Assembly (NCBI GenBank): GCA_021819035.1
Contig: JAKASL010000002.1
Span: 186,001-250,000, forward strand
DNA: 64,000 nucleotides
From: an archaeon
GTDB taxonomy: Archaea; Thermoproteota; Nitrososphaeria; Nitrososphaerales; Gagatemarchaeaceae
Reading direction: 5' to 3'
Below, in pieces: positions 4,334-42,780 of this stretch. Each line of letters begins with the position of its first letter. The stretch's first letter is position 1. The position numbers and the translations under genes are program-made. The notes below the pieces were generated by a model. That model was not told where the DNA came from. It saw only the letters and a program-made list of their open reading frames with translations, and made no database searches.

Positions 4334-4747
4334 CTAGAGTATGCCCAGCAGCGCGTCCAGTGACAACGCCCCGGACCCCAGCAGGAGGATCCCTAGGGAG
4401 AGTATCAGATAGACGTAGTCGAGTTCGAACCCTGGCTTCTCCCCGGCCGCCATGAACCCCGCCTTCATCTTGCTGCTCTTCATGACTATGATCGCGGCGA
4501 ACTGTATGACGAAGAAGGCAGCGACCAGAGGGACAAGAAGCCCCACGATGAGCAGGATCCCGCCGAAGAACTCCAGAAGCGTGACGAGCCTCGCCGCAGC
4601 GGGAGGGACCCCCATTGTGGCCACCCACGCCCCTGACTGCTTCCCCCACCCCCCTTTCACCTTCTGCACCCCATGGGCTATCATGGCGGCACCCACGGCT
4701 ACCCTGAGTATGAGCGACACATAATCCGGATTGATTAGAGCGGACAT
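4334..4747 (-). CDS. DoxX family integral membrane protein
   Basis: A 137-residue protein with four hydrophobic helices. The pattern LRVAVGAAMIAHGVQKVKGG in helix 1, LVTLLEFFGGILLIVGLL in helix 2 and VYLILSLGILLLGSGALS at the C-terminus is typical of DoxX/DoxD-like proteins. Some family members are quinol-oxidising subunits of archaeal terminal oxidases or thiosulfate:quinone oxidoreductase; many have no known activity. No oxidase genes lie beside it, so the specific role is open. Confidence 0.8.
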   Translation of the reverse strand: MSALINPDYVSLILRVAVGAAMIAHGVQKVKGGWGKQSGAWVATMGVPPAAARLVTLLEFFGGILLIVGLLVPLVAAFFVIQFAAIIVMKSSKMKAGFMAAGEKPGFELDYVYLILSLGILLLGSGALSLDALLGIL

Positions 4748-4885
4748 CGTGATCTGGTAAGCCGCTCAGACCTGGTTAAAGAACTTGACTGTGCCGCCTC
4801 CCGGGAGGCCAGGACCCTGTGCTGAGCGGCATGGGTGGTGGTGAGAACGCCTGCAGCGGCCATGGTCGAGAGTCCCCGCATGAGT

Positions 4886-5452
4886 AGCACTGGAATCGAC
4901 GAAACGAAGGTGGCGTTAGTCGCCATCTACCTGGAGGAAGGCATCTCTCAATGGAGACGCAGCCCAACCCAGTCAAGATTGTGGTCGACAACGCGGCGCT
5001 GCTGTCGGGGACGACCTGGAGGGCGGCATAACAGTCTATCTGGTTCACGCGACGCGGCCCAGGGGACGTCCCTGGCGACGCTCACTGACACGTCGTTCCC
5101 GTCGTGAGAGGAGGAGCCCATTGCCTGGGCAGATATGGCCCCAGAGCTCGCCCCTGCCTCTTCCGATGCAGCGATGACGGAGCACCGATGGGGTGGGTCC
5201 TACGGCACTGACCCCGAGTTGAGGCTTGGGAGAGGGCTCCGACACGATAGTCCTCTGCGGCGTCGCCACCACCTACGGCGTCGAAAGCACCGCCAGGTTC
5301 GCGTAGGGGTACGGTTTCCAGCAGTGTCCGTAGAGGACGCGATGTCCGACCGGTCGGCCGAGGCCTGCAGGTGCGCGATGGAGTTCGTTTTCAATAGGAT
5401 AGGCAGGGTGAGGCAGACCCAGGAAGTGATTGACGCCCTTCCCCGAACGTGA
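4886..5452 (+). pseudogene. Frameshifted isochorismatase-family cysteine hydrolase
   Basis: Pieces of one isochorismatase-like hydrolase lie in order but in different frames. ETKVALVAIYLEEGIS (about 4898-4945) is followed by METQPNPVKIVVDNAALLSG (from 4951, next frame) and VYLVHATR (about 5033-5060). Then come MAPELAPASSD and HRWGGSYGTDPELRL (5135-5230), DTIVLCGVATTYGVESTARF (about 5240-5305) and VEDAMSDRSAEA plus NRIGRVRQTQEVIDAL (to 5452). The family's CGVAT nucleophile motif survives. At least four frame changes and internal stops mean no functional protein. Decay appears recent because the motifs are still sharp. Confidence 0.8.
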
Positions 5453-5498
5453 TTGCCGGGGTTTCACTTATATCTCAGCGCGTGTCACTTGGAGGGCG

Positions 5499-5876
5499 AT
5501 GCTGCAGATTCAGTGGGACAAGATTATCACGGAAATCTACAAGTTTGACCGCAGGATAAGGTCTGCCCAAATCCTCGACCAAAGCGGCAGGCAGATCGCC
5601 GGAGGCATGAGGAAGGGGATTCCCTCCCTGGAGCCACAGAGCGAGGACATCAGGCTCATCGCGGGGATCACAATCCAGATCAACACCGACAGGACGTGGG
5701 ACCGCTACTTCGGAAAGAACCAGTACACCTTCAACAAGAGGGAGAGGTTGAACATCATGACATTCTATCTCGGGGATAAGCTCGTCCTCGTCTCAGCGGA
5801 GCCTGATTTCACCCTGCAACAGGCGCAGGATTTACGAAACCAGATAACAACGAACCACGCCGAGCTGGCGAGATAA
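5499..5876 (+). CDS. Conserved archaeal protein, possibly DUF6659-like
   Basis: A 125-residue soluble protein starting MLQIQWDKIITEIYK. The pattern of an amphipathic helix, the strand ILDQSGRQIAGGMRKG, and a later strand pair (LNIMTFYLGDKLVLVSAE) resembles small profilin-like/roadblock-type sensor folds found widely in Nitrososphaeria, sometimes labelled DUF6659; that label is from memory and unverified. The ATG at 5499 is chosen because CTTATATC at 5467-5474 gives leaderless spacing. It is convergent with the tiny gene at 5900-6079. Function unknown. Confidence 0.6.
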   Translation: MLQIQWDKIITEIYKFDRRIRSAQILDQSGRQIAGGMRKGIPSLEPQSEDIRLIAGITIQINTDRTWDRYFGKNQYTFNKRERLNIMTFYLGDKLVLVSAEPDFTLQQAQDLRNQITTNHAELAR

Positions 5877-5899
5877 AAACCGCCGAGAGAGTCTACGGC

Positions 5900-6079
5900 C
5901 TAGCTGAGGCCTAGCTCAGGGAACTTCGCCTTGACGAGACCAAGCTCGCCCTGGAGAGTCCTGATGCGCTCGGCATACTTCTTCATGTCTTCCGTGTTTT
6001 TCTGAACTTTGGCGACCTTGTACCCGCGCCAGGCCTTCTTCAAGGCGCCCCAGCTCTGACCTTTAGTATACTGAGACAT
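5900..6079 (-). CDS. 59-residue conserved mini-protein, paralogue of the one at 62759
   Basis: Reading from ATG 6079 gives MSQYTKGQSWGALKKAWRGY and continues to the end motif KFPELGLS. It aligns without gaps along its length with the mini-protein at 62759-62935 (MAEYQKGQVWGALRKAWKGY through FPNLGI). Shared features are a GQ-W-GAL-KAW-GY N-terminal helix, a K-Y-A-RI-TLQG-LG helix and a short Phe-Pro-x-Leu-Gly tail. Conservation between two loci is strong evidence that this short frame is translated. Basic and mostly helical; function unknown. It is convergent with the upstream gene, with 23 nt between stops. Confidence 0.75.
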   Translation of the reverse strand: MSQYTKGQSWGALKKAWRGYKVAKVQKNTEDMKKYAERIRTLQGELGLVKAKFPELGLS

Positions 6080-6185
6080 GTGGAAGTACCCGCGGCCCAG
6101 ACCATATAAGGCTTAACATCGTTTTTAGCGTGTCCCGCCCCGTCTGTCGCGATATCATCCCGCAGGAGCAGGCTCCGGCAGGCCT

Positions 6186-6569
6186 TCACTTCACTTCGAA
6201 CGGAATCCTGTTCCCGTTGTGGTCATAGACACCGAGGTTGTCGACAGTGGCGAAGGGGTACCCCATTATCACCATGAGCTTCCCGCTGGCATGCAGCAGG
6301 TCCTGGTGGGAGGGGTTGTAGTTCCCGGATGGGTGAGAGTGTGCGACGCCTAGATAAGAGAAGTCGACCGGGAGCATCCACCAGCTGAATGAAGAGAACG
6401 CGGCCCCGTGGCTGGCGAGGGGAGGGATTACGACCCCCGTCACCTCCACCACCCCCTTCTTCGACTTCCCCCTGAGGAGGAGGATCCCTTCGTTGGGGTA
6501 CGCCATGGCAGAGTAGCTGAAGAGGCTGTCTATGACCTGTTTGTGAAAGACGACCTTCTCTACGACCAT
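6186..6569 (-). CDS. JAMM/MPN-domain metalloprotease-like protein
   Basis: A 127-residue stand-alone JAMM domain. The zinc-site elements are present: the upstream catalytic Glu in PNEGILLLRG, and HSHPSGNYNPSHQD, giving the H-x-H-P and the downstream Ser and Asp. Archaeal JAMM proteins remove ubiquitin-like SAMP modifiers from proteins or process sulfur-carrier proteins. The proteasome alpha gene lies about 700 nt away on the other strand, which fits a protein-turnover role but is not proof. It follows the amidotransferase gene by 9 nt and is probably co-transcribed with it. Confidence 0.85.
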   Translation of the reverse strand: MVVEKVVFHKQVIDSLFSYSAMAYPNEGILLLRGKSKKGVVEVTGVVIPPLASHGAAFSSFSWWMLPVDFSYLGVAHSHPSGNYNPSHQDLLHASGKLMVIMGYPFATVDNLGVYDHNGNRIPFEVK

Positions 6570-6578
6570 CCCTTCCGC

Positions 6579-7166
6579 CTACTTCAGGAGCCCTATGAAG
6601 TTGGCCACAACCCTGTCCCCATCGGGATTGGCAGGGGTGAACCGCTCCGGATGGAACTGCACCCCGTAGAGGGTGCGGGCCTTGTGCTTCATGGCGGCGA
6701 CGGCACTGGTGTCGCTCCTGGCCAAGAGGATGAACCCCTCCGGGACCTCCTTGACCACCTCGTACCTGGACTCGAAGAGTTTGAGCGACCGGGAGAGGCC
6801 CCCGAAGAGCGGGTCGTCTCGCAGGACGGCGGTGTTCACCATCTCGAGGACATGCTTCTTGTCCTCGACAACCTCAGCGCCGTAGGCGTGGGCCATGAGC
6901 TGGTGCCCGAAGCAGATGCCTAGTATGGGGGCGCGTGAATCTAAGATGGCCTGGGCCTCGGCCCTGTACTTGGCCCTGGTCCCGGTGTCAGTCATCATCT
7001 CCGGGGAGCCGCTGAGGACCACCCCGTCGAACGAGTCGAACTTGGCGGCGGAGGACTCGTGCCACTCGATGGTGGTCACAGTTGCGCCGTTCGTCTGGAA
7101 GCACTTCTCCAGAACCCCGGCGCGCCCTTCCGTCGGATAGTTACTCACTACCAGGACTTTGGTCAA
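6579..7166 (-). CDS. Class I glutamine amidotransferase, GMP synthase-subunit type
   Basis: A 195-residue class I glutaminase domain. The oxyanion region VVLSGSPEMM, nucleophile motif LGICFGHQLMAHAYG with Cys at the elbow, and the catalytic VQFHPE near the C-terminus are intact. Size and motifs match the stand-alone glutaminase subunit of archaeal GMP synthase (GuaA-A), which feeds ammonia to the XMP-amidating subunit. No synthetase subunit is in the window, so another partner or a generic GATase role is possible. It leads a two-gene operon with the JAMM gene. Confidence 0.8.
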   Translation of the reverse strand: MTKVLVVSNYPTEGRAGVLEKCFQTNGATVTTIEWHESSAAKFDSFDGVVLSGSPEMMTDTGTRAKYRAEAQAILDSRAPILGICFGHQLMAHAYGAEVVEDKKHVLEMVNTAVLRDDPLFGGLSRSLKLFESRYEVVKEVPEGFILLARSDTSAVAAMKHKARTLYGVQFHPERFTPANPDGDRVVANFIGLLK

Positions 7167-7277
7167 CCCAGGTCAGGGCCCTGTCTTACGATAATAACTT
7201 TCGTGGAAAAAATGAGAACCGCAGAACAGTTTAAATGGCCAAGGAATTAGTTGGGCAAAAAGGAGCAAGGCAAGAAA

Positions 7278-8024
7278 ATGTTTGCACCTTCGGCAGGATA
7301 TGACAGGGCGATCACGATCTTTTCGCCCGACGGCAGGCTGTACCAAGTGGAGTACGCCCTCGAGACGGTCAGGAGGGGCAACCTGGCTGTAGGTGTCCAG
7401 ACGAGGCAGGGTGTGGTGCTGGCCGTAGAAGAGAAGCAGAGGAAGCTCCAGAGTGCCGAGTCGGTCATCAAGATGTTCCAGATCGACGACCACGTCGGAG
7501 CTGTCGGAGCCGGCTACATCCCGGACGCTCGGATACAGGTGGACAACGCGCGCGTCCTGGCGCAGAGCAACAGGCTGATCTATGACGAGCCGGTTGACAT
7601 CGAAGCCATAGCCAAGCGCATCGCCGACATGAACCAGCAATATACGCAGTACGCAGGCGTCAGGCCATTCGGGGTCTCTCTCATCATAGCCGGCGTCGAC
7701 GGAGCCGGGCCGGTGGTATACCTCGCCGACCCTACGGGGACTTACTCCGGGTTCCACGCCATAGCGATAGGGCAGGGGAGCGACCAGGTCAACGACTATC
7801 TCGAGAAGAACTATTCCTCAGACCTGGCACTCGACGAAGCCGTGACCCTGGCCATAGAATGCATCTATCTAGTCAGCGAGGACAAGAGCGGGACTTCGCA
7901 CATCAAGGTCGCCGTGGTGGACGCGGAGAGCAAGAAGTGGAGGCGCCTAGCCGAAGCCGAGGTAAGCAAGAGCGCGGCAGGGGCCAAGACCAGGTCAGAC
8001 AAGCCGCCGGCCAAGAGCTCCTGA
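7278..8024 (+). CDS. psmA: 20S proteasome alpha subunit
   Basis: A 248-residue proteasome alpha subunit. The signature MFAPSAGYDRAITIFSPDGR, then LYQVEYALETVRRG, is the N-terminal H0/gate segment; RPFGVSLIIAGVD is also typical. Alpha rings cap the beta rings and gate substrate entry for protein degradation. A TTG at 7251 would add nine residues, but the TATA-like GTTTAAAT at 7229-7236 predicts transcription starting near 7258, after that codon. ATG 7278 also matches family length. It heads the conserved block with SBDS and the exosome. Confidence 0.93.
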   Translation: MFAPSAGYDRAITIFSPDGRLYQVEYALETVRRGNLAVGVQTRQGVVLAVEEKQRKLQSAESVIKMFQIDDHVGAVGAGYIPDARIQVDNARVLAQSNRLIYDEPVDIEAIAKRIADMNQQYTQYAGVRPFGVSLIIAGVDGAGPVVYLADPTGTYSGFHAIAIGQGSDQVNDYLEKNYSSDLALDEAVTLAIECIYLVSEDKSGTSHIKVAVVDAESKKWRRLAEAEVSKSAAGAKTRSDKPPAKSS

Positions 8025-24734: not shown

Positions 24735-25775
24735 TCACCCATAGACCCTCGCCACTGCCCTCAGCTGCGCCCTGGTGAGCTTCACCTCGGCCCCCTCCGG
24801 GGCCTCGACAGACACCTTCCCTTCCGCCTCCCCCCTGGCCACGACCCTGTCGGAGAACGGCTCCGCCCTCGAGGCGTCCAGGGCGGCGAGGAAGGGGGAG
24901 AACTCGTCGGGGCCGGGCCAGCCGTGCCTCTCCTGGATCTCCTCGACGAGCTCGGCGAAGAGGGGGCGCCTGGCGGGGGCGAGGTCGGAGTGGGGTATGA
25001 AGGGGGGGCCCGCGGGCTCGGAGACCCTGAACGCGCGGTGGGAGACGACCAGCCCCTCCTCGGTCCTCACAGCGAAGACGTCGAAGGGGAGGGACGACAC
25101 GGCCTCCAGGTCCTGGGTCCCGACGTCGAGGCGTTCGAGGGTCAGGGAGAGCCTCTTGGCTGCGTCGCGGCTGTCCAGGGGGAGGAGGTGGGCCCCCCTC
25201 TGCGAGAGCGTCCGCGTCTCCCGCCGCAGGGCCCTGAGGACCTTCTCCTCGGCAGCACTGTAGCCGAGGGCGTAGACGCTCACGACCTGGAACGCGGAGG
25301 GCGACCTCCCCGCGAAGACGAGGAGCCGGCCGTCGAGCGCGGCGACCCCTCTCGGTTGGTCCTGGGCCTCGAGCTTCACCTCCGCGAGCGCGTGCCACCG
25401 CAGGGGGAAGAGCCTGCTCCTCAGGAGTATCGAGTCTGTCATCGGGACCACCCTCCCCCCCACCCCGCTCCTGCGCGCGAGGGGCCAGAGGAAGACCGCA
25501 AGCCAGCCCGCGGAGAAGGCGACAGGCGAAAGCGTCCCCCCTGCCGCCACGGCGGCGAGCGCCAGCAGGAGGAGGGCGCATCCGAGCGCACATCTCCCCC
25601 AGGGGCGCCCGGGCCTAGCCAAGACCTGCTGCTTGACTATGACCGCGCGCTTGGCCCGTGGCTTGCGGAAGGAGTAGGCCAGGTAGACCAGCCCGAGGAG
25701 GAAGATGGGCCAGGCGCCGAGGGCCAGGGCGACGAGCCCGGCCAGGACCACGAGCAGCCGCGCCCCCCACCCCAT
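24735..25775 (-). CDS. Two-helix membrane protein of unknown function, last gene of pseudo-ATPase operon
   Basis: A 346-residue protein. Two hydrophobic stretches near residues 6-35 and 62-97 anchor it in the membrane, separated by a basic loop (RKPRAKRAVIVKQQ). The remaining 245 residues are cytoplasmic or external and mixed alpha/beta, with ERLDVGTQDLEAVSSLPFDV and EGAEVKLTRAQLRAVARVYG near the end. I recognise no enzyme motif. Its ATG shares the last base of the RadA-like gene's stop region, so the two are translationally coupled. The operon suggests it tethers the ATPase to the membrane; this is inference. Confidence 0.65.
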   Translation of the reverse strand: MGWGARLLVVLAGLVALALGAWPIFLLGLVYLAYSFRKPRAKRAVIVKQQVLARPGRPWGRCALGCALLLLALAAVAAGGTLSPVAFSAGWLAVFLWPLARRSGVGGRVVPMTDSILLRSRLFPLRWHALAEVKLEAQDQPRGVAALDGRLLVFAGRSPSAFQVVSVYALGYSAAEEKVLRALRRETRTLSQRGAHLLPLDSRDAAKRLSLTLERLDVGTQDLEAVSSLPFDVFAVRTEEGLVVSHRAFRVSEPAGPPFIPHSDLAPARRPLFAELVEEIQERHGWPGPDEFSPFLAALDASRAEPFSDRVVARGEAEGKVSVEAPEGAEVKLTRAQLRAVARVYG

Positions 25776-26785
25776 CAGTGGAACCCCTCCCCGTCCTGTC
25801 GGGCGTAGGCGAACCTGGTGTACTCCTCGAGCGCGGGGTGCCTTGCGGCCCAGAAGGCCTTGGTGCTCCCCTCCTTCTCGCCGGGGTTGAGGGCCTCCGG
25901 GTTCCTGTCCTTGTTCCTCGACGCGGTGGACTTCGTCAGCTCGAGGGAGAACTTCGCGTCGTGGCCGAGGATGACACCGCCGTATGGGATCCTGTCCCAG
26001 GGGTTGATGGGGTCGATGGAGACGTGGCTGGTGACGAGGACGGCTATGCCGAACTCGACGCAGAGACGCTGGGCGTGGGCGAGGAGCATGGCGAGCCCGG
26101 CGCTCCGGGCGGGGAGGTCTTGCGTGCTGGGGAAGGATGACTTGAAGGGGGCGGAGATCGAGTCGTAGACGAGCAGCCTTGCCCCGCTCTCGCGGATGAT
26201 CTGGTGGAGGGCAGACTGGTAGGTGGGGGTCTGCCTCAGCCTCAGCTCGACCCGGCCGCCGCTGGAGACCTCCTTGGCGGCGTCGACGCCGTGGAGGTTC
26301 AGGAGGTCGACGACCTCGGGGGTCTGGAGGACCAGGACGGAGGGCCCCTTGGGGGGGAGCTCGACGTGGAAGTCAGGGGAGAAGATGTCTGCGACTGCGC
26401 TGAGATGCGCGTCGGTGTAGGAGACCCCCAGGTGGCTGAGGGCCGCGTCGACGGCGTTGATGAGCTGGCCCCTGGTGACGGGCTTCCGCTTCGGCGAGAC
26501 TTTGGGCGCCCTCTCGAGCTTCACCTCTGCGACGCTGAACTCCCTCTCAAACCTCTTGGACATCCTGTCCCGCCAGTAGGGGACGAGGTAGCTCGAGTAC
26601 GACTGCTCTGTGTCGAGGATCACCGAGCTCCCTCCGGCGGCGGCCACCGAGCATGCGGCCTGGAAGGAGATGATGCTCTTCCCCAGGGCCTTCTCCCCGA
26701 ATATCTGGGTGACCGTCCCCGTGGCCAGGCCTCCGTCCGTCAGGGCGTCCACGGCGGAGCAGCCGGTGGCGAGGTGCTCCATCAC
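25775..26785 (-). CDS. RadA/RadB-like RecA-superfamily ATPase
   Basis: A 336-residue RecA-fold protein. Walker A is GEKALGKS at residues 30-37, Walker B LLVYDSIS with D208, and IAVLVTSHVS near 250 is the RecA motif that senses nucleotide. YGGVILGHDAKFSLEL resembles the RadA C-terminal strand. There is no N-terminal helix-hairpin-helix domain, as in RadB. An extra 80-100 residues between Walker A and B (about 75-170) are rich in charged residues and not seen in RadB. ATP binding is likely; the partner is probably the degenerate ATPase encoded just upstream with a 4-nt overlap. Confidence 0.75.
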   Translation of the reverse strand: MMEHLATGCSAVDALTDGGLATGTVTQIFGEKALGKSIISFQAACSVAAAGGSSVILDTEQSYSSYLVPYWRDRMSKRFEREFSVAEVKLERAPKVSPKRKPVTRGQLINAVDAALSHLGVSYTDAHLSAVADIFSPDFHVELPPKGPSVLVLQTPEVVDLLNLHGVDAAKEVSSGGRVELRLRQTPTYQSALHQIIRESGARLLVYDSISAPFKSSFPSTQDLPARSAGLAMLLAHAQRLCVEFGIAVLVTSHVSIDPINPWDRIPYGGVILGHDAKFSLELTKSTASRNKDRNPEALNPGEKEGSTKAFWAARHPALEEYTRFAYARQDGEGFH

Positions 26786-28008
26786 CTGCTCAGCCCCTGC
26801 AGGAGCCGCCTCCCCGGCTCCGTCACAGTGTAGGCGAGCATCTTGGGGCCGGACCCGTTCTGCTTGGGCTCCAGGATGATGTACCCTTCAGAGTGGAGCC
26901 TGTCTATCTCGGCCGCGACGTCCGCCGGGAGGAACTGCGGTGAAAGATAAGAGACTATGGACTGCCTGTTGGCAGAGTCGAACCGTGAGACCTCCTCGAG
27001 GATCGTCCTCGTGAGCTCCGGGAGTGCTCGCCTGGCCGGGCCCGGCGGCAGGGCGCCTGGGGCGCGCTTCGGCCTGATGAACCGGGGGACGAACCCCAGG
27101 GATGCGCCGGAGCGGTCGTCGCAGACGACGTAGGAGCATGCGAGGGCGGCGGCCTGCCTCCAGTTCCTCCGGGCGTTCCACGCTTCGCTGGAGTAGACCC
27201 TGACCGGCACCGACTCGATTAGCTGTTCGCTCAGGAGGGCGGGGAGAGGGGTGGCGAGGACCAGGGGGAGACTGGACTCCAGGAGCCGCGCCAGGAGCCT
27301 CCCCGAGTGCTGGAAGCGGGTGAGGGCCCTGAAGAGGCGGTGGGCCCCGGTGATGAGGAGGGCGTGGGGGGACGAGCCGGGGTGGGAGACGAGGTGGAGG
27401 AGCTTGGCGACGTAGAGCCCTGCGGCGAGGTCTGCGGCCTGAGGGTAGGGGGCGGAGGAGAAGCTCACCATGGTCCCGCCTGAGGTCAAGGCGTCGAAGC
27501 CCTCCCCCCTGGCGGCGTCGAGGAGGCGGAGGGCCCCCACCCTCCCCCTCAGCTTGTCGACGTAGAAGCCCCTGAACCCTTCGACGGCACCAAGGGCGTC
27601 ATAGAGGGCGGCGGGGGTGGCCAGGTCGTTCTGCTCGGACAGCCTCTGGAGGGCAGCGGAGAGGACGGCCTCCTCCTCTGAGGTGAGGTCGAGGGCAGCG
27701 GCATAGGCGGAGGCGACGAGCTGGCCGTGCATAGCGTCCTCCCCCTCGAGGTGGAACGCTTCGTAGAGGAGCGACCGGTAGTCGAAGCAGCTGAAGCGGC
27801 CGCGGACCTCGGGGGACACGGACCCGTCGACGTCGAGGACCGCGAGCCTCGACCCCGCCTCCGCGGCTGCGTAGGCGAAAAGGGTCGCCATGGCCCCCGC
27901 CTGCCTGCCCAGGAGGAGGACGCGCTCGCCGAGCTCCCGTATCCCGACGTGGCCCCTGGCCCTGTCGAGGGAGTACCCGAGCCAGCCTGCTGCTCCTTGT
28001 GCGCTCAA
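26782..28008 (-). CDS. Degenerate HerA/FtsK-like pseudo-ATPase with C-terminal winged helix
   Basis: A 408-residue protein. The P-loop position reads LLLGRQAGAMATL (residues 31-43), with the loop glycine but no Lys-Ser/Thr. The Walker B position reads HALLITGAHRLF (215-226), with Thr-Gly where Asp-Glu is expected. SSLPLVLATPLPALLSEQL resembles the sensor strand of HerA-type ATPases. Residues about 335-405 form a winged helix (FDSANRQSIVSYLSPQFLPA, then GYIILEPKQ). It therefore looks like an inactive ATPase fused to a DNA-binding domain. It leads a three-gene operon; TTAAG centred near 28036 suits leaderless transcription. Confidence 0.65.
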   Translation of the reverse strand: MSAQGAAGWLGYSLDRARGHVGIRELGERVLLLGRQAGAMATLFAYAAAEAGSRLAVLDVDGSVSPEVRGRFSCFDYRSLLYEAFHLEGEDAMHGQLVASAYAAALDLTSEEEAVLSAALQRLSEQNDLATPAALYDALGAVEGFRGFYVDKLRGRVGALRLLDAARGEGFDALTSGGTMVSFSSAPYPQAADLAAGLYVAKLLHLVSHPGSSPHALLITGAHRLFRALTRFQHSGRLLARLLESSLPLVLATPLPALLSEQLIESVPVRVYSSEAWNARRNWRQAAALACSYVVCDDRSGASLGFVPRFIRPKRAPGALPPGPARRALPELTRTILEEVSRFDSANRQSIVSYLSPQFLPADVAAEIDRLHSEGYIILEPKQNGSGPKMLAYTVTEPGRRLLQGLSR

Positions 28009-28072
28009 CGGGGAGCTGCGCGCATGGTTCGCTTAAGGCGCTGACGCACGAGTAGGGAGCACGACTCGGGAG

Positions 28073-28085
28073 CACAACTTGTTCA
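28073..28085. promoter_or_regulatory. Palindromic operator candidate, copy 1
   Basis: CACAACTTGTTCA contains the perfect 9-bp palindrome ACAAcTTGT. It sits just before the TATA-like CATATC (28084-28089) of the winged-helix gene at 28114. The exact reverse complement of all 13 bases occurs at 28375-28387, on the other side of that gene. Confidence 0.55.
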
Positions 28086-28113
28086 TATCAGGCAGGGTCG
28101 GTCCTCAGGGCGG

Positions 28114-28377
28114 TTGAGGAACCGGGACACGACCGTGATCTACTGGGAGCTCCTCAGGGCCATGGCCCCCGGCCCGCAGCTCCCCACCAGGCTGGCCCGT
28201 GCGACCAACATACCATACGATAGGCTCGGTCAATACCTGGATTTTCTCACTGCGGGTGCATTGGTCGAGGTCGAACCTTCGGAGGGCCACGAGAGGTATT
28301 CGCTTACGCCGAAGGGTATGGAGGCGCTCGGCCGCCTCGACGCCGGCCTGAGGTTGCTCTTCCCCGCCTTGGAGTGA
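28114..28377 (+). CDS. Small winged-helix transcriptional regulator
   Basis: An 87-residue winged helix. YWELLRAMAPGPQLPTRLAR, then YDRLGQYLDFLTAGALVEVE forms helices 1-3, and the wing is followed by RYSLTPKGMEALGRLDAGL, the pattern of small archaeal ArsR/PadR-like regulators with TPKG. TTG 28114 is 27 nt from the CATATC box, so the transcript is leaderless. Identical palindromes lie before its promoter and at the start of the next gene, implying autoregulation of this pair and possibly of the divergent ATPase operon about 100 nt away. Confidence 0.75.
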   Translation: MRNRDTTVIYWELLRAMAPGPQLPTRLARATNIPYDRLGQYLDFLTAGALVEVEPSEGHERYSLTPKGMEALGRLDAGLRLLFPALE

Positions 28378-28387
28378 ACAAGTTGTG
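28375..28387. promoter_or_regulatory. Palindromic operator candidate, copy 2
   Basis: TGAACAAGTTGTG, the exact reverse complement of 28073-28085, spans the stop codon of the winged-helix gene and the GTG start (28385) of the next gene. Bound protein here would lie within the operon, or the site may form a local loop with copy 1. Confidence 0.5.
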
Positions 28388-28828
28388 AGCGTGGATTATA
28401 AGGCAGACGAGGGCCTGGACCAGGCGTTGTCCGAGGACGAGGACCCGGGGGTCTCCATCATCGAGCTCCAGGAGGAGTTCATCCAGCACATGGAGCGTGG
28501 AGGGAGGAAGATTAGGATGCTCGCCCTCGTAGCCACGGTCGCTGGCGCTTACTTTGCGGCCAGCTACTTTGCGCAGCTGGTCGTCGTCCCTTACGGTCTG
28601 GGGGTCACGAGCCAGACCGTGGACCTGGTGGACCCGGGGGTGGTGGCGGCTGGGGTCCTGAGCCTGGCCGTCTCGATCCTCTGGTTTTACGCAGGGGCCA
28701 GGGACCTCTTGTTTGAGAGAAGGCTCGCTAGGAGGATAGGGGAAGTGAGGAGGCTCCAGTCTGATATCGCCAAGAGATACGGACTCGAGGGGCTGGCGCC
28801 GGCCCCCAGGCCCGCTCCGCAAGATTAA
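28385..28828 (+). CDS. Two-helix membrane protein downstream of winged-helix gene
   Basis: A 147-residue protein. An acidic N-terminal stretch (ADEGLDQALSEDEDPG) and a short helix precede two membrane helices, about residues 43-67 (IRMLALVATVAGAYFAASYF) and 88-106 (VVAAGVLSLAVSILWFYAGA). A charged C-terminal helix (RRLARRIGEVRRLQSDIAKR) and a Pro/Ala tail follow. It starts with GTG 7 nt after the regulator and is surely in its operon. Function unknown; it may be regulated membrane partner of that regulator. Confidence 0.65.
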   Translation: MSVDYKADEGLDQALSEDEDPGVSIIELQEEFIQHMERGGRKIRMLALVATVAGAYFAASYFAQLVVVPYGLGVTSQTVDLVDPGVVAAGVLSLAVSILWFYAGARDLLFERRLARRIGEVRRLQSDIAKRYGLEGLAPAPRPAPQD

Positions 28829-39157: not shown

Positions 39158-40957
39158 TCACTTCAGGTACTCGTCCAGGATTTCTTCGTTGTTCTCGGCG
39201 TGGAAGAACACGGGGATGTTCTGAGTGGCCGTCGCCTTGAAGCTGGTCAGGAGCCAGTCTCCGTTCTGGAAGGCGAGCGTCCGTTCCATGAAGGCGTCGT
39301 CAATGGCGAAGGTGTCCGAGACTAGTTGCCTGTCGTAGGGCCTCGGCATCGTCGACACGAAGTAGCTGTGAAGCTGCTGGAGGGCGTTGGTGTTCAGGTT
39401 GGCGACCCTCTGGGTCCCTATCCAGCAGTTGAGATGGTATTTCCTCCCGTGCCTGAGGAGTCGCTCCAAGGCTCTGCTCGACGCGTCCGTGCCGTCTTCT
39501 TTCCTGGTGCTCTGTGGGATGAACTCCTGCGCCTCGTCGACTATGAACAGCACTCTGGGGGAGAGGGTGAAGCTCCGCTTGCGCTTTCTGAAGACCTCGT
39601 TGATGACGTTGGCGGTCTCGAGCCTGGCGTCTTCGGCCTCTGGGAGATTGATGACGAACACCCTTGGTGAATCCTTGTCGGTGGAGAGTATCTCCTCTGA
39701 GAGTTTGCTCCAGCTGTAACCTTCCTCCTCCTCTTCTACCTCGGGGATTGACTCCACGATCCGCGCCAGGCTGTCGAAGGCCTTCTTCAGCGCGCTGTTC
39801 GCCGGGAGGTCTGCGAGCAACGGCTGGATCTTGCGGATGAGGTCCATGGTCCTGGCGCTGAACCTGGCCTCTATCTCGAGCTTGTTCTCGCGGAGGAACC
39901 CCTTGATTAGCTCGATCACCTGGGGGACGAGTATCTTCTGCTGGACGGGTCCGTACTTCTCGTTGAGTGTGTTCGACAGGACCTCGACGAGCCCCTCGTA
40001 GGTGCTGAACCTCGCTGCGTCCTCCTCCCCGGCCATCCGGGTCTGGAGGAACTCTACCTTCCCCGCCGCAAAGAGCTGGGCTATCTTGGGGCGGAAGTCC
40101 TTCTCTCTCCTGGCAAGCGCTTCGGGGGTGGCGTGGCGCTTGAAGTATTCAGCCTCTGGGCTCTTGCTGTCCTTGAACGAGTCGGTGAAGAGAACCCGGC
40201 TCGGGAGGCGGTTGAGGACGTCGAGGATGTGGATCCCGTATTCTGCCGATACGTCGAAGATCACCACCTTGAGGTCTGGGATGGCGTGAAGCGCCTTGCG
40301 TATGACTGTGGCAGTGAGATTGGACTTGCCGCTGCCGGTGAAGGCGAAGGTGCCGCTCATGTAGTGAATCAGCTGCTCTAAGTTGACCGAAAACGGTATG
40401 GAGCCGTCGGTGAAGCCTAGTAGCTTTCCCAGCGAGTAGTCGTTCGCATCGCCCCCCCGCGGCTTGAAGCAGATGAGCCCCTCTATCGCCTCCTTGCTCA
40501 GTAGCCTCACCTGGCTCCCTGTGAGGGGGGCCAACGCCCCCCTTTCGTAGGAGACGCCAGCTGCCGTCGTCTTCATCACGTACCCTATCGGCGCAGCGAC
40601 TATCTCTATCCATGTGCTCTTTGAGCCCTTCTCCCATTCTTTCTGGATGAGGTCCATGAACTCTGTCCTGATCGCCGCAGGCTGAGAGCGGTCGAGGGTG
40701 AGCATCGAATAGTGCATGGGATAGACGTCGGCGATCTCATAGAGTGAATAGGAGCTGCTTCCCCCCAGCGCCTGGACATTGGGGATGGCTACCAGCTGCC
40801 CCATCGCGAGTCGCTTGACTACGTTGGGGGTGTATTCGGAGTCAATCCTTGCGGTGCGGAACGTGACGGTCGAGTTGTCCACCGTGGAGCGGGTGGTGGT
40901 CGCAATCTCTCTGAGCCGGGCCTTGAACTCGCCGTCCAGGTCATCAAATGGCTCCAT
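39158..40957 (-). CDS. HerA-type hexameric DNA-translocating ATPase
   Basis: A 599-residue DUF87/HerA ATPase. An N-terminal beta region (about 1-110) corresponds to the HAS barrel. Walker A is FTGSGKSN at about residues 206-213, the Walker B region RVLFIVDEAQEFIPQ lies near 480, and NCWIGTQRVANL near 530 is the sensor/arginine-finger region. HerA pumps DNA and in archaea pairs with NurA nuclease to resect DNA ends. Here it follows a NurA-like gene by 2 nt. It has an extra acidic segment EVEEEEEGYSW near 410. No mre11/rad50 lies alongside. Confidence 0.85.
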   Translation of the reverse strand: MEPFDDLDGEFKARLREIATTTRSTVDNSTVTFRTARIDSEYTPNVVKRLAMGQLVAIPNVQALGGSSSYSLYEIADVYPMHYSMLTLDRSQPAAIRTEFMDLIQKEWEKGSKSTWIEIVAAPIGYVMKTTAAGVSYERGALAPLTGSQVRLLSKEAIEGLICFKPRGGDANDYSLGKLLGFTDGSIPFSVNLEQLIHYMSGTFAFTGSGKSNLTATVIRKALHAIPDLKVVIFDVSAEYGIHILDVLNRLPSRVLFTDSFKDSKSPEAEYFKRHATPEALARREKDFRPKIAQLFAAGKVEFLQTRMAGEEDAARFSTYEGLVEVLSNTLNEKYGPVQQKILVPQVIELIKGFLRENKLEIEARFSARTMDLIRKIQPLLADLPANSALKKAFDSLARIVESIPEVEEEEEGYSWSKLSEEILSTDKDSPRVFVINLPEAEDARLETANVINEVFRKRKRSFTLSPRVLFIVDEAQEFIPQSTRKEDGTDASSRALERLLRHGRKYHLNCWIGTQRVANLNTNALQQLHSYFVSTMPRPYDRQLVSDTFAIDDAFMERTLAFQNGDWLLTSFKATATQNIPVFFHAENNEEILDEYLK

Positions 40958-40959
40958 CG

Positions 40960-42780
40960 TCAGCCCCCCCTCCGTCGTCCCTCTATTTGGCTGCGGTAGT
41001 CTCTGAACCTACGGGAGAACAGCACCTGCTGGTCCAGGTCCGATTTCGCCATTTCTACCGCCACGGCCCCGAGGTAAGCCTGGCGGGTCTCTTCCAGGAT
41101 CGACTTCGCCTTCTTGTCGGCGAGGAAGAGCGGGTAGTTGTGCCCTAGGGCTTCGGGGATCACCTCTTCCGCCATCTCAGCCAGCATGGCCATCACCACG
41201 TTTGTGAGGTCGGAGCCCCTTTGGAAGTGGAGCACCGGGTGGATCCTGACGTCGGCCGGGCCATCCTTGTTGAACAAGGTGACCTCGTCCCAGTGGTCGT
41301 AGCCCGGGTACACGGGCCTGTCGTATGTGAAGACGTGGCTCCTCACGCTGGGGGTCGATTCGCTGCTCCACAGCTGGACATAGGATTTCAGGTAGACCCT
41401 CTCCTGGTAGATGACGTTCTCGAAGGCGCCGTTCACGCGGGCCTCTCCGCCGGCCAGACTGGGGTCGTCCCTGGGGGCCATCGTCCTGAAGGAAGCGTCG
41501 ATCTCTGGGGTATACCAGGGGGTCGGGGTGGTTGCTGCGTTGACGACGCTGTTCGTCTGCAGGAGCATCTTGTCGCTGTTGAAGTTGGGGAACCTCTCTG
41601 ATTCGATCAGCCCGGCACGACATAGGATGGGGACGACCGCTTTGACCAGCTCGAAGGCGTTGGTGTCCTTGATGAATCCAATCGGGAGGACTCTGTCCGA
41701 CCAGGCTTTCCTGACAAGAGCCCTGACCAGGACAAGGACCATGAAGTCGAGGTCGTCAGCGGTGACCCAGCGCTCTGACCCCCCGTTCTTCACACGGAGC
41801 GGATGCCCTCCTTCTGGGGCGAACACGTGGCTTGCGACCGCGAGGGTGGCCGCGAGCACCCTGTCCCAGTAGTCCGAAGCTCCTGGCTTGAGCTTGAAGG
41901 CTGGAGAAGTCTGCTCGAAGCCCCCGAACTGGCCGTCGAGCTCGAGGAGGTCCCCGTTCAGCCTTTCGGTCCATTTGGGATCGGCCCCCAAGCGGGCGAC
42001 AAGCTCGCTAGGGGTGAGCGCTTCGCCGCCAAAGAGCGCGAGGACGGCCGCGAACTTCAGGAGCTGGCTCCTCGGCGTTGGGGTGGCGAGTTGGTCATTG
42101 GGAAGGAGCATCCGGGCCAGCTCGAGGTCGAGTGCTGTGACCTTGCCATAGGGTGTGTCCAGCCCTTCCAGGATACATCGCCTGTCTTCTATGAGATCCC
42201 TGGTGCTCCAGACCAGGTGGGCGACGTCCCCTGCCATGGTCCTGTCTACCAGGACTATCTTCCTCGCCGGGTCTCCCAAGATGCCCCGGAAGGCGAGGTA
42301 ATATTCGGCCATGTGCATCAGGGCGTTCGGCAGCCGTTCTGGGTCGACCTCCACGCCAGACTCGCGTTTCTGGCCGAACACCTGTGCGGCGTCCTCTTCC
42401 GACAGAGGGATCGCCGCAGAAGCCGAAAGGCCACCGTCCGTAGCACGTGGCGTCCCCACCTCGACCCCGCCTTCCCGGAAAGTCACCGTCCCTGAGTAGG
42501 CGAAGGCGCCCACGTAGAACACGATGAGGTCGAGCTGCTGGTCCATGGAGTTGGTCCCGTCGATGGCGATGTAGCCGACCGTATCGCTTCCGAAGAAACG
42601 CTCGGCAGTCGACGCGGCCCCCTTGAAGTCCACCCCGAACCTGAGCAGCGCCTTGATCTCCGGGGCGCAGTCCTCCAGCGCGCGCATCTTGGCCTTGAAG
42701 GAGTCAAGCAGGAAGCGGGTGGAGGCCTGCACCCCAGCGATGGTCCTGGACTCTGCACCCGCGGCGTCTGTCCCAGACAA
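40960..42780 (-). CDS. Large NurA-like nuclease-fold protein
   Basis: A 606-residue protein, almost twice the size of ordinary archaeal NurA. Residues 69-78 (GYIAIDGTNS, D74) match the first acidic motif of NurA, and KIVLVDRTMAGD with D179 matches the second strand-Asp motif. A NurA-like C-terminal segment (YPLFLADKKAKSILEETRQA) lies near 560. Between are about 350 residues with no recognised domain. It is encoded immediately before the HerA-type ATPase, so a HerA-NurA machine is likely. Whether the nuclease site is complete cannot be judged by eye. Confidence 0.65.
   Translation of the reverse strand: MSGTDAAGAESRTIAGVQASTRFLLDSFKAKMRALEDCAPEIKALLRFGVDFKGAASTAERFFGSDTVGYIAIDGTNSMDQQLDLIVFYVGAFAYSGTVTFREGGVEVGTPRATDGGLSASAAIPLSEEDAAQVFGQKRESGVEVDPERLPNALMHMAEYYLAFRGILGDPARKIVLVDRTMAGDVAHLVWSTRDLIEDRRCILEGLDTPYGKVTALDLELARMLLPNDQLATPTPRSQLLKFAAVLALFGGEALTPSELVARLGADPKWTERLNGDLLELDGQFGGFEQTSPAFKLKPGASDYWDRVLAATLAVASHVFAPEGGHPLRVKNGGSERWVTADDLDFMVLVLVRALVRKAWSDRVLPIGFIKDTNAFELVKAVVPILCRAGLIESERFPNFNSDKMLLQTNSVVNAATTPTPWYTPEIDASFRTMAPRDDPSLAGGEARVNGAFENVIYQERVYLKSYVQLWSSESTPSVRSHVFTYDRPVYPGYDHWDEVTLFNKDGPADVRIHPVLHFQRGSDLTNVVMAMLAEMAEEVIPEALGHNYPLFLADKKAKSILEETRQAYLGAVAVEMAKSDLDQQVLFSRRFRDYRSQIEGRRRGG

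Follow-up and report, generated by a model that had tools for sequence, protein, structure and literature searches.

HerA, the archaeal end-resection translocase that works with NurA, shares its fold with the first protein (A) of the gene set presented here, and the closest live relatives of A are HerA-like (L124 and L044). However, A lacks a P-loop, ends in a winged helix, and has as partners a RadA paralogue (B) and a membrane protein (C) rather than NurA. Thus, of the features that mark HerA, the HerA/FtsK-type RecA fold is present in A, and the Walker A and B motifs and an operon with NurA are not. VirB4 and TrwB from type IV secretion, as well as CedB, CedD and TedB from archaeal DNA import, have the same fold as A and are membrane-associated. 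They differ in that A is dead, no pilin or channel gene is conserved with it, and C has no significant match to the N-terminal part of VirB4. The genes conserved at the locus include no live VirB4-like ATPase, VirB6/CedA-like channel or VirB2/CedA1-like pilin of the kind that Ced/Ted import would call for.

RadB, aRadC and the eukaryotic Rad51 paralogues resemble B in being RadA-family cores that lack the N-terminal domain and carry live ATPase motifs, whereas B forms its own clade, contains an insert of about 100 residues and has its gene in a fixed operon with those for a membrane protein and a dead protein of the HerA fold. KaiC and ArlH are, like B, RecA-fold ATPases encoded beside a membrane protein, but B scores far closer to RadA, and the shared gene set has no archaellum-type partners. 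A preliminary description of this DNA had allowed that the set might already be characterized; no description of A-B-C was found in the open-licence literature. Because the tests for HerA, RadA proper, the RadB-like clade and, on the conserved genes, Ced/Ted all failed, the core genes gave no defense match and no published description was found, we rate the arrangement as new at the level of the system; the proteins of which it is built come from known superfamilies.

Layout of the locus

The window, that is, the whole stretch of 64,000 nucleotides analyzed here, belongs to an archaeal draft genome of 1.67 Mb that is assembled into three contigs. Positions 24735-28828 hold five ORFs, with A, B and C on the minus strand and a regulator (Reg) and a second membrane protein (Mem) divergent from them on the plus strand:

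26782-28008, minus strand: gene A, 408 aa, a pseudo-ATPase of the HerA/VirB4 fold that ends in a winged helix (AlphaFold model, Foldseek PDB and profile matches, P-loop absent in 47 homologues)
27880-27909, minus strand: degenerate P-loop of A, GRQAGAMATL, residues 34-43 (sequence and homologue comparison)
27331-27360, minus strand: degenerate Walker B of A, LLITGAHRLF, residues 217-226 (sequence and homologue comparison)
26785-27027, minus strand: winged helix of A, about residues 328-408 (model secondary structure, PadR/MarR-type profile matches)
25775-26785, minus strand: gene B, 336 aa, RadA-family ATPase of a separate paralogue clade (Pfam Rad51, hhalign to RadA, tree)
26675-26698, minus strand: intact P-loop of B, GEKALGKS, residues 30-37 (45/45 homologues, alignment)
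26204-26563, minus strand: extra stretch of B, about residues 75-194, partly missing in RadA (hhalign against RadA and RadB-like sets)
24735-25775, minus strand: gene C, 346 aa, a soluble alpha/beta domain preceded by as many as four membrane helices (AlphaFold, alignment)
28114-28377, plus strand: Reg, 87 aa, winged-helix regulator (HTH_45/Sso10a-like) with TTG start (profile matches)
28427-28828, plus strand: Mem, two-helix membrane protein; its ORF opens at 28385, and the likely start is TTG 28427
28073-28085, plus strand: operator CACAACTTGTTCA, in the gap that separates A from Reg and next to a TATA-like element
28375-28387, minus strand: inverted operator copy over the Reg stop codon, just upstream of the TATA-like element of Mem (28395-28403)

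The preliminary description had reported a 4-nt overlap of A and B, which is found both in the window and in most loci. It had also described B as overlapping a two-helix membrane protein; the overlap stands, at 1 nt, and the helix number does not, since up to four helices are predicted in C. The start of B may be its second codon. Mem probably starts at TTG 28427 because the ORF start at 28385 falls inside an operator and relatives use this later codon.

A dead HerA/VirB4-fold protein, a RadA-family ATPase and a membrane protein

The AlphaFold model of A is confident (pLDDT 87.2, pTM 0.76) and gave 73 PDB matches at E<=1e-3 in Foldseek, the best of them being HerA (E 1.5e-7), the DndH C-domain, TrwB and VirB4. 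A Pfam search with the window protein returned no match to its core, just a weak PadR-like winged helix. Profiles of A did match live HerA-like proteins in hmmsearch (L124, 3e-7; L044, 1.5e-7), and hhalign aligned A with L124 (94.7%, E 6e-8; shuffled controls <=1%). Since profile and AlphaFold/PDB fold matches agree, the HerA/FtsK-like layout originally proposed for A is correct. The loss of its P-loop and Walker B, also claimed at the outset, extends to the relatives, which had been considered a possible source of intact residues. None of 47 A proteins from four families keeps a GxxxxGK[ST] P-loop, and the two looser P-loop-like matches among them both lie in the C-terminal winged helix. Walker B acidic residues are mostly gone, with a lone Glu at the position in 9/30 family members, and Arg224 within the degenerate motif is invariant in the family. 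As dN/dS between close relatives is 0.21-0.29, the dead protein is maintained under purifying selection. Loss in all relatives together with this selection rules out sequencing error or recent decay; the motifs were lost long ago.

The winged helix that had been noticed at the end of A is supported by a helix-helix-helix-strand-strand-helix order in the model and by weak profile matches to PadR/MarR-type proteins. In families beyond that of the window it is the part of A most visible to the profile. We conclude that A belongs to the HerA/VirB4 fold class, carries a winged helix and is catalytically dead. It is not the HerA of this genome, which has live HerA-like genes elsewhere. One of them (599 aa, Pfam DUF87 2.1e-10) lies in the window, separated by three bases from a gene of 606 aa that Pfam does not match; the two, together at 39158-42780 on the minus strand, are a candidate HerA partner pair.

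B matches Pfam Rad51 (4.4e-18) and aligns with RadA by hhalign (E 5.6e-18) from RadA residue 86 onward, so that it starts at the core and lacks the N-terminal helix-hairpin-helix domain. Its P-loop is intact in 45/45 homologues checked and the Walker B Asp is conserved in the alignment, as expected from the first reading of B as a RadA-like ATPase with intact Walker motifs. The insert of 80-100 residues proposed in the same reading was also recovered: compared with RadA, B has additional sequence within residues 75-194. B is thus an ATPase of the RadA family that retains its catalytic motifs. Other Rad51-family genes were present in 11/11 genomes tested, canonical RadA in each and RadB-like genes in most. 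In a maximum-likelihood tree whose RadB-like sequences were those of the same genomes, B proteins of five families formed one group (support 99/97, 100% of bootstrap trees), and the RadA and RadB-like proteins of the same genomes fell outside it. B is thus not the main RadA, which is a separate gene in a separate clade and has the N-terminal domain that B lacks, nor is it the RadB-like protein of these genomes.

The RadA gene of the host genome (G000:C3:332615-334831; L216, L228) is itself split by a probable intein, whose sequence (CVAGDT...) follows at once on the Lys of the P-loop (GEFGSGK). An interruption of this kind was also found in two further genomes tested (L215 in G016 and L218 in G123).

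Because KaiC and ArlH profiles also match B, albeit weakly, and the winged helix of A resembles PadR/MarR regulators, one could picture a membrane signaling switch in which C or Mem senses, B acts as a nucleotide-dependent switch in the manner of KaiC/ArlH, and A is in effect a transcription factor. This is rather improbable in our view: RadA/Rad51 profiles match B far better than KaiC does, hhalign shows that B keeps RadA-like regions after Walker B, and the DNA-motor fold of A would be unneeded.

C is a membrane protein. Its model (pLDDT 82.3) consists of a soluble alpha/beta domain and, at the N-terminus, four helices. Helices 1 and 2 are short and perhaps make up a single kinked segment, so that the chain may cross the membrane two to four times. 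A family search with C gave no match and a fold search no significant one, the best hit being a chain of the ESX-3 translocon (E 0.027). VirB4/TrwK ranked third, again without significance (E 0.3, probability 0.38). This match, and the fact that A matches VirB4 and TrwB as well as HerA, would fit a role in DNA transfer or uptake, with C as the membrane/N-terminal part and A as the dead motor part of a split ATPase of the VirB4 type, and with B receiving incoming single-stranded DNA. There is a parallel in Sulfolobales, where CedB and CedD jointly resemble the VirB4 N-terminal domain (PMC11868833), and one lineage has the gene of a live, membrane-bound HerA-like protein directly after C. Such a role is nevertheless unlikely: hhalign of C against a live HerA-like protein found no match, genes of the pilin or VirB6/CedA type are not conserved near A-B-C across 20 loci, and a dead motor could not drive transport by itself.

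Conservation, distribution and regulation

A, B, C, Reg and Mem are exactly the five genes common to 20/20 diverse Gagatemarchaeaceae (Group I.1c) loci. Two further entries in the locus comparison, at 18/20 and 7/20, are shadow ORFs antisense to the shared genes, real neighbors other than the five reach at most 6/20 loci, and no constant DNA-repair neighbor was found at the loci compared. In five or six loci the Reg-Mem pair lies 3-6 kb from A. The suggestion that this pair might belong to the set is therefore supported within this family; no Reg or Mem was found in other families with the profiles used. The A-B-C order recurs in families f18 and f20 in different surroundings, so the three-gene linkage that the preliminary description had anticipated holds, and the converse, that the genes would prove unlinked elsewhere, was not observed. 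The C proteins of f18 and f20 match those of f1 weakly by sequence; we assigned them as C on their position, their membrane helices and the similarity of a C-terminal motif. The gene directly preceding B in f19 is A-like, encodes 388-419 aa and is matched by the A profile (95%, E 5.5e-8). The C position there is taken by a small membrane gene and a soluble gene without sequence match to C, which may be its counterparts by position. The C of f24 is clear by sequence (E 1.7e-5).

In one lineage the operon has a fourth gene, 7 nt downstream of C, whose 974-aa product is a live HerA-like ATPase predicted to have five membrane helices at its N-terminus (L044:4431-7355, minus strand); the same gene occurs in broken frames in L058 (about 4386-7320, minus strand). 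The single f24 genome (L177:4125-7304) carries B and C without detectable A and has a 2.2-kb A-less gap upstream of B, which may reflect loss, decay or assembly error. Three genomes (G009, G010 and G023) contain two to four B matches each, with one G023 copy having broken A and B frames; as contamination in these genomes is 4-8%, mixed bins are likelier than B paralogues.

B was found in 46/400 genomes of the class, in 17/82 genera, and was confined to the genus of the window in two phylum samples (398 and 320 genomes). Near-complete genomes of f10, presumably an ammonia-oxidizer family to judge by kinship and genome size, that are listed in the phylum samples lack B. Carriers of B include AcS1-13, AcS1-27, SubAcS15-15, SubAcS15-57 and palsa_1368, which have been placed in Gagatemarchaeaceae (Group I.1c, non-ammonia-oxidizing Thaumarchaeota) (PMC10640624). 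The genome of the window carries the family label f1 and presumably belongs to Gagatemarchaeaceae as well. Between A, B and C, pairwise distances are correlated (0.88-0.93); shared vertical descent alone would produce this correlation, which is therefore no proof of interaction. A-B-C is an anciently assembled, vertically inherited and membrane-associated set of non-ammonia-oxidizing Nitrososphaeria.

Most members of the family have the set, and the divergence of its genes matches, which speaks against an anti-phage defense module. HerA-type proteins do appear in several defense systems among the PDB matches, but PADLOC profiles matched none of A, B, C and Mem, Reg was matched weakly through its winged helix, and the core genes have no viral relatives. 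A defense role is hence very improbable, and a viral origin has no support either, as the two viral matches of B cover only residues 2-64. The same wide presence, with all five genes in 20/20 loci, would suit a chromosome tether or segregation device, in which A uses its winged helix to bind DNA, either generally or at particular sites, C attaches it to the membrane and the ATPase B drives ATP-dependent release or movement. However, no link to known segregation genes was seen and a shallow search found no centromere-like repeats, and we give this explanation little credence.

The palindrome thought to control the regulator is real: the exact 13-mer CACAACTTGTTCA occurs twice in the genome, and both copies flank Reg (28073-28085 and, inverted, 28375-28387) and adjoin TATA-like elements, those of Reg and of Mem. 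A genome search for further regulon members found no other exact operator, and one-mismatch matches stayed at the level of reversed-pattern controls. Some other lineages share a different word at the same two places, e.g., TAGGTAAGT or CTTGACGTGAG, as expected when regulator and operator co-evolve. A shared word is not a feature of every relative; it exceeded shuffles in about half of 30 loci, mostly where Reg directly adjoins A. Reg probably regulates itself, and would repress its own divergent promoter region and Mem.

A possible membrane platform for a RadA paralogue

The anatomy of the operon is near certain; its function, whether recombination mediation, DNA transfer, tethering or signaling, we infer. 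Of the DNA-positioning, segregation or repair machine suggested at the outset, the parts and their linkage hold, and the role is still a proposal. The reading that we tentatively prefer, as a real possibility short of a probable one, is a membrane-tethered complex of a recombinase paralogue with A as DNA-binding scaffold and B as motor or switch. A, B and C would form one complex. In it, A would be a fixed scaffold that binds DNA via its winged helix, C would tether the assembly to the membrane, and B would provide ATP-driven switching, in the way that RadB and the Rad51 paralogues aid the main recombinase. Such a complex would keep broken ends, forks or incoming strands of DNA at the membrane and would there assist in loading or regulating RadA. 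This last step draws on the analogy with RadB, which has been reported or proposed as a recombination mediator (PMC5480776).

We count in favor of such a mediator the fold and profile evidence for A, its maintenance without P-loops, the RadA-family identity of B with its own clade, the five genes in 20/20 loci, the A-B-C order elsewhere, the operators found only here, and the live membrane HerA-like gene 7 nt downstream of C in one lineage. Against it stand the missing RadA N-terminal domain in B, the lack of a constant DNA-repair neighbor, the lack of a recognized fold in C, and f24 with B-C and no detectable A. More broadly, the set may represent a new class of machine, a membrane-fixed dead HerA/VirB4-type winged-helix platform for a dedicated RadA paralogue that couples recombination or incoming DNA to the membrane, old within Nitrososphaeria and absent from the sampled ammonia oxidizers; we put this forward as a doubtful proposal.

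Because the set is sharply defined, cleanly distributed and provided with dedicated regulation, its function is directly testable. In the open-licence literature we found no account of archaeal recombination machinery attached to the membrane in this manner, and the retention of a dead HerA-type subunit next to a live RadA paralogue combines two well-studied superfamilies in a new way. If the set is indeed a recombinase-loading or DNA-receiving platform, it would bear on how archaeal recombination is organized at the membrane and on how inactive motors turn into scaffolds.
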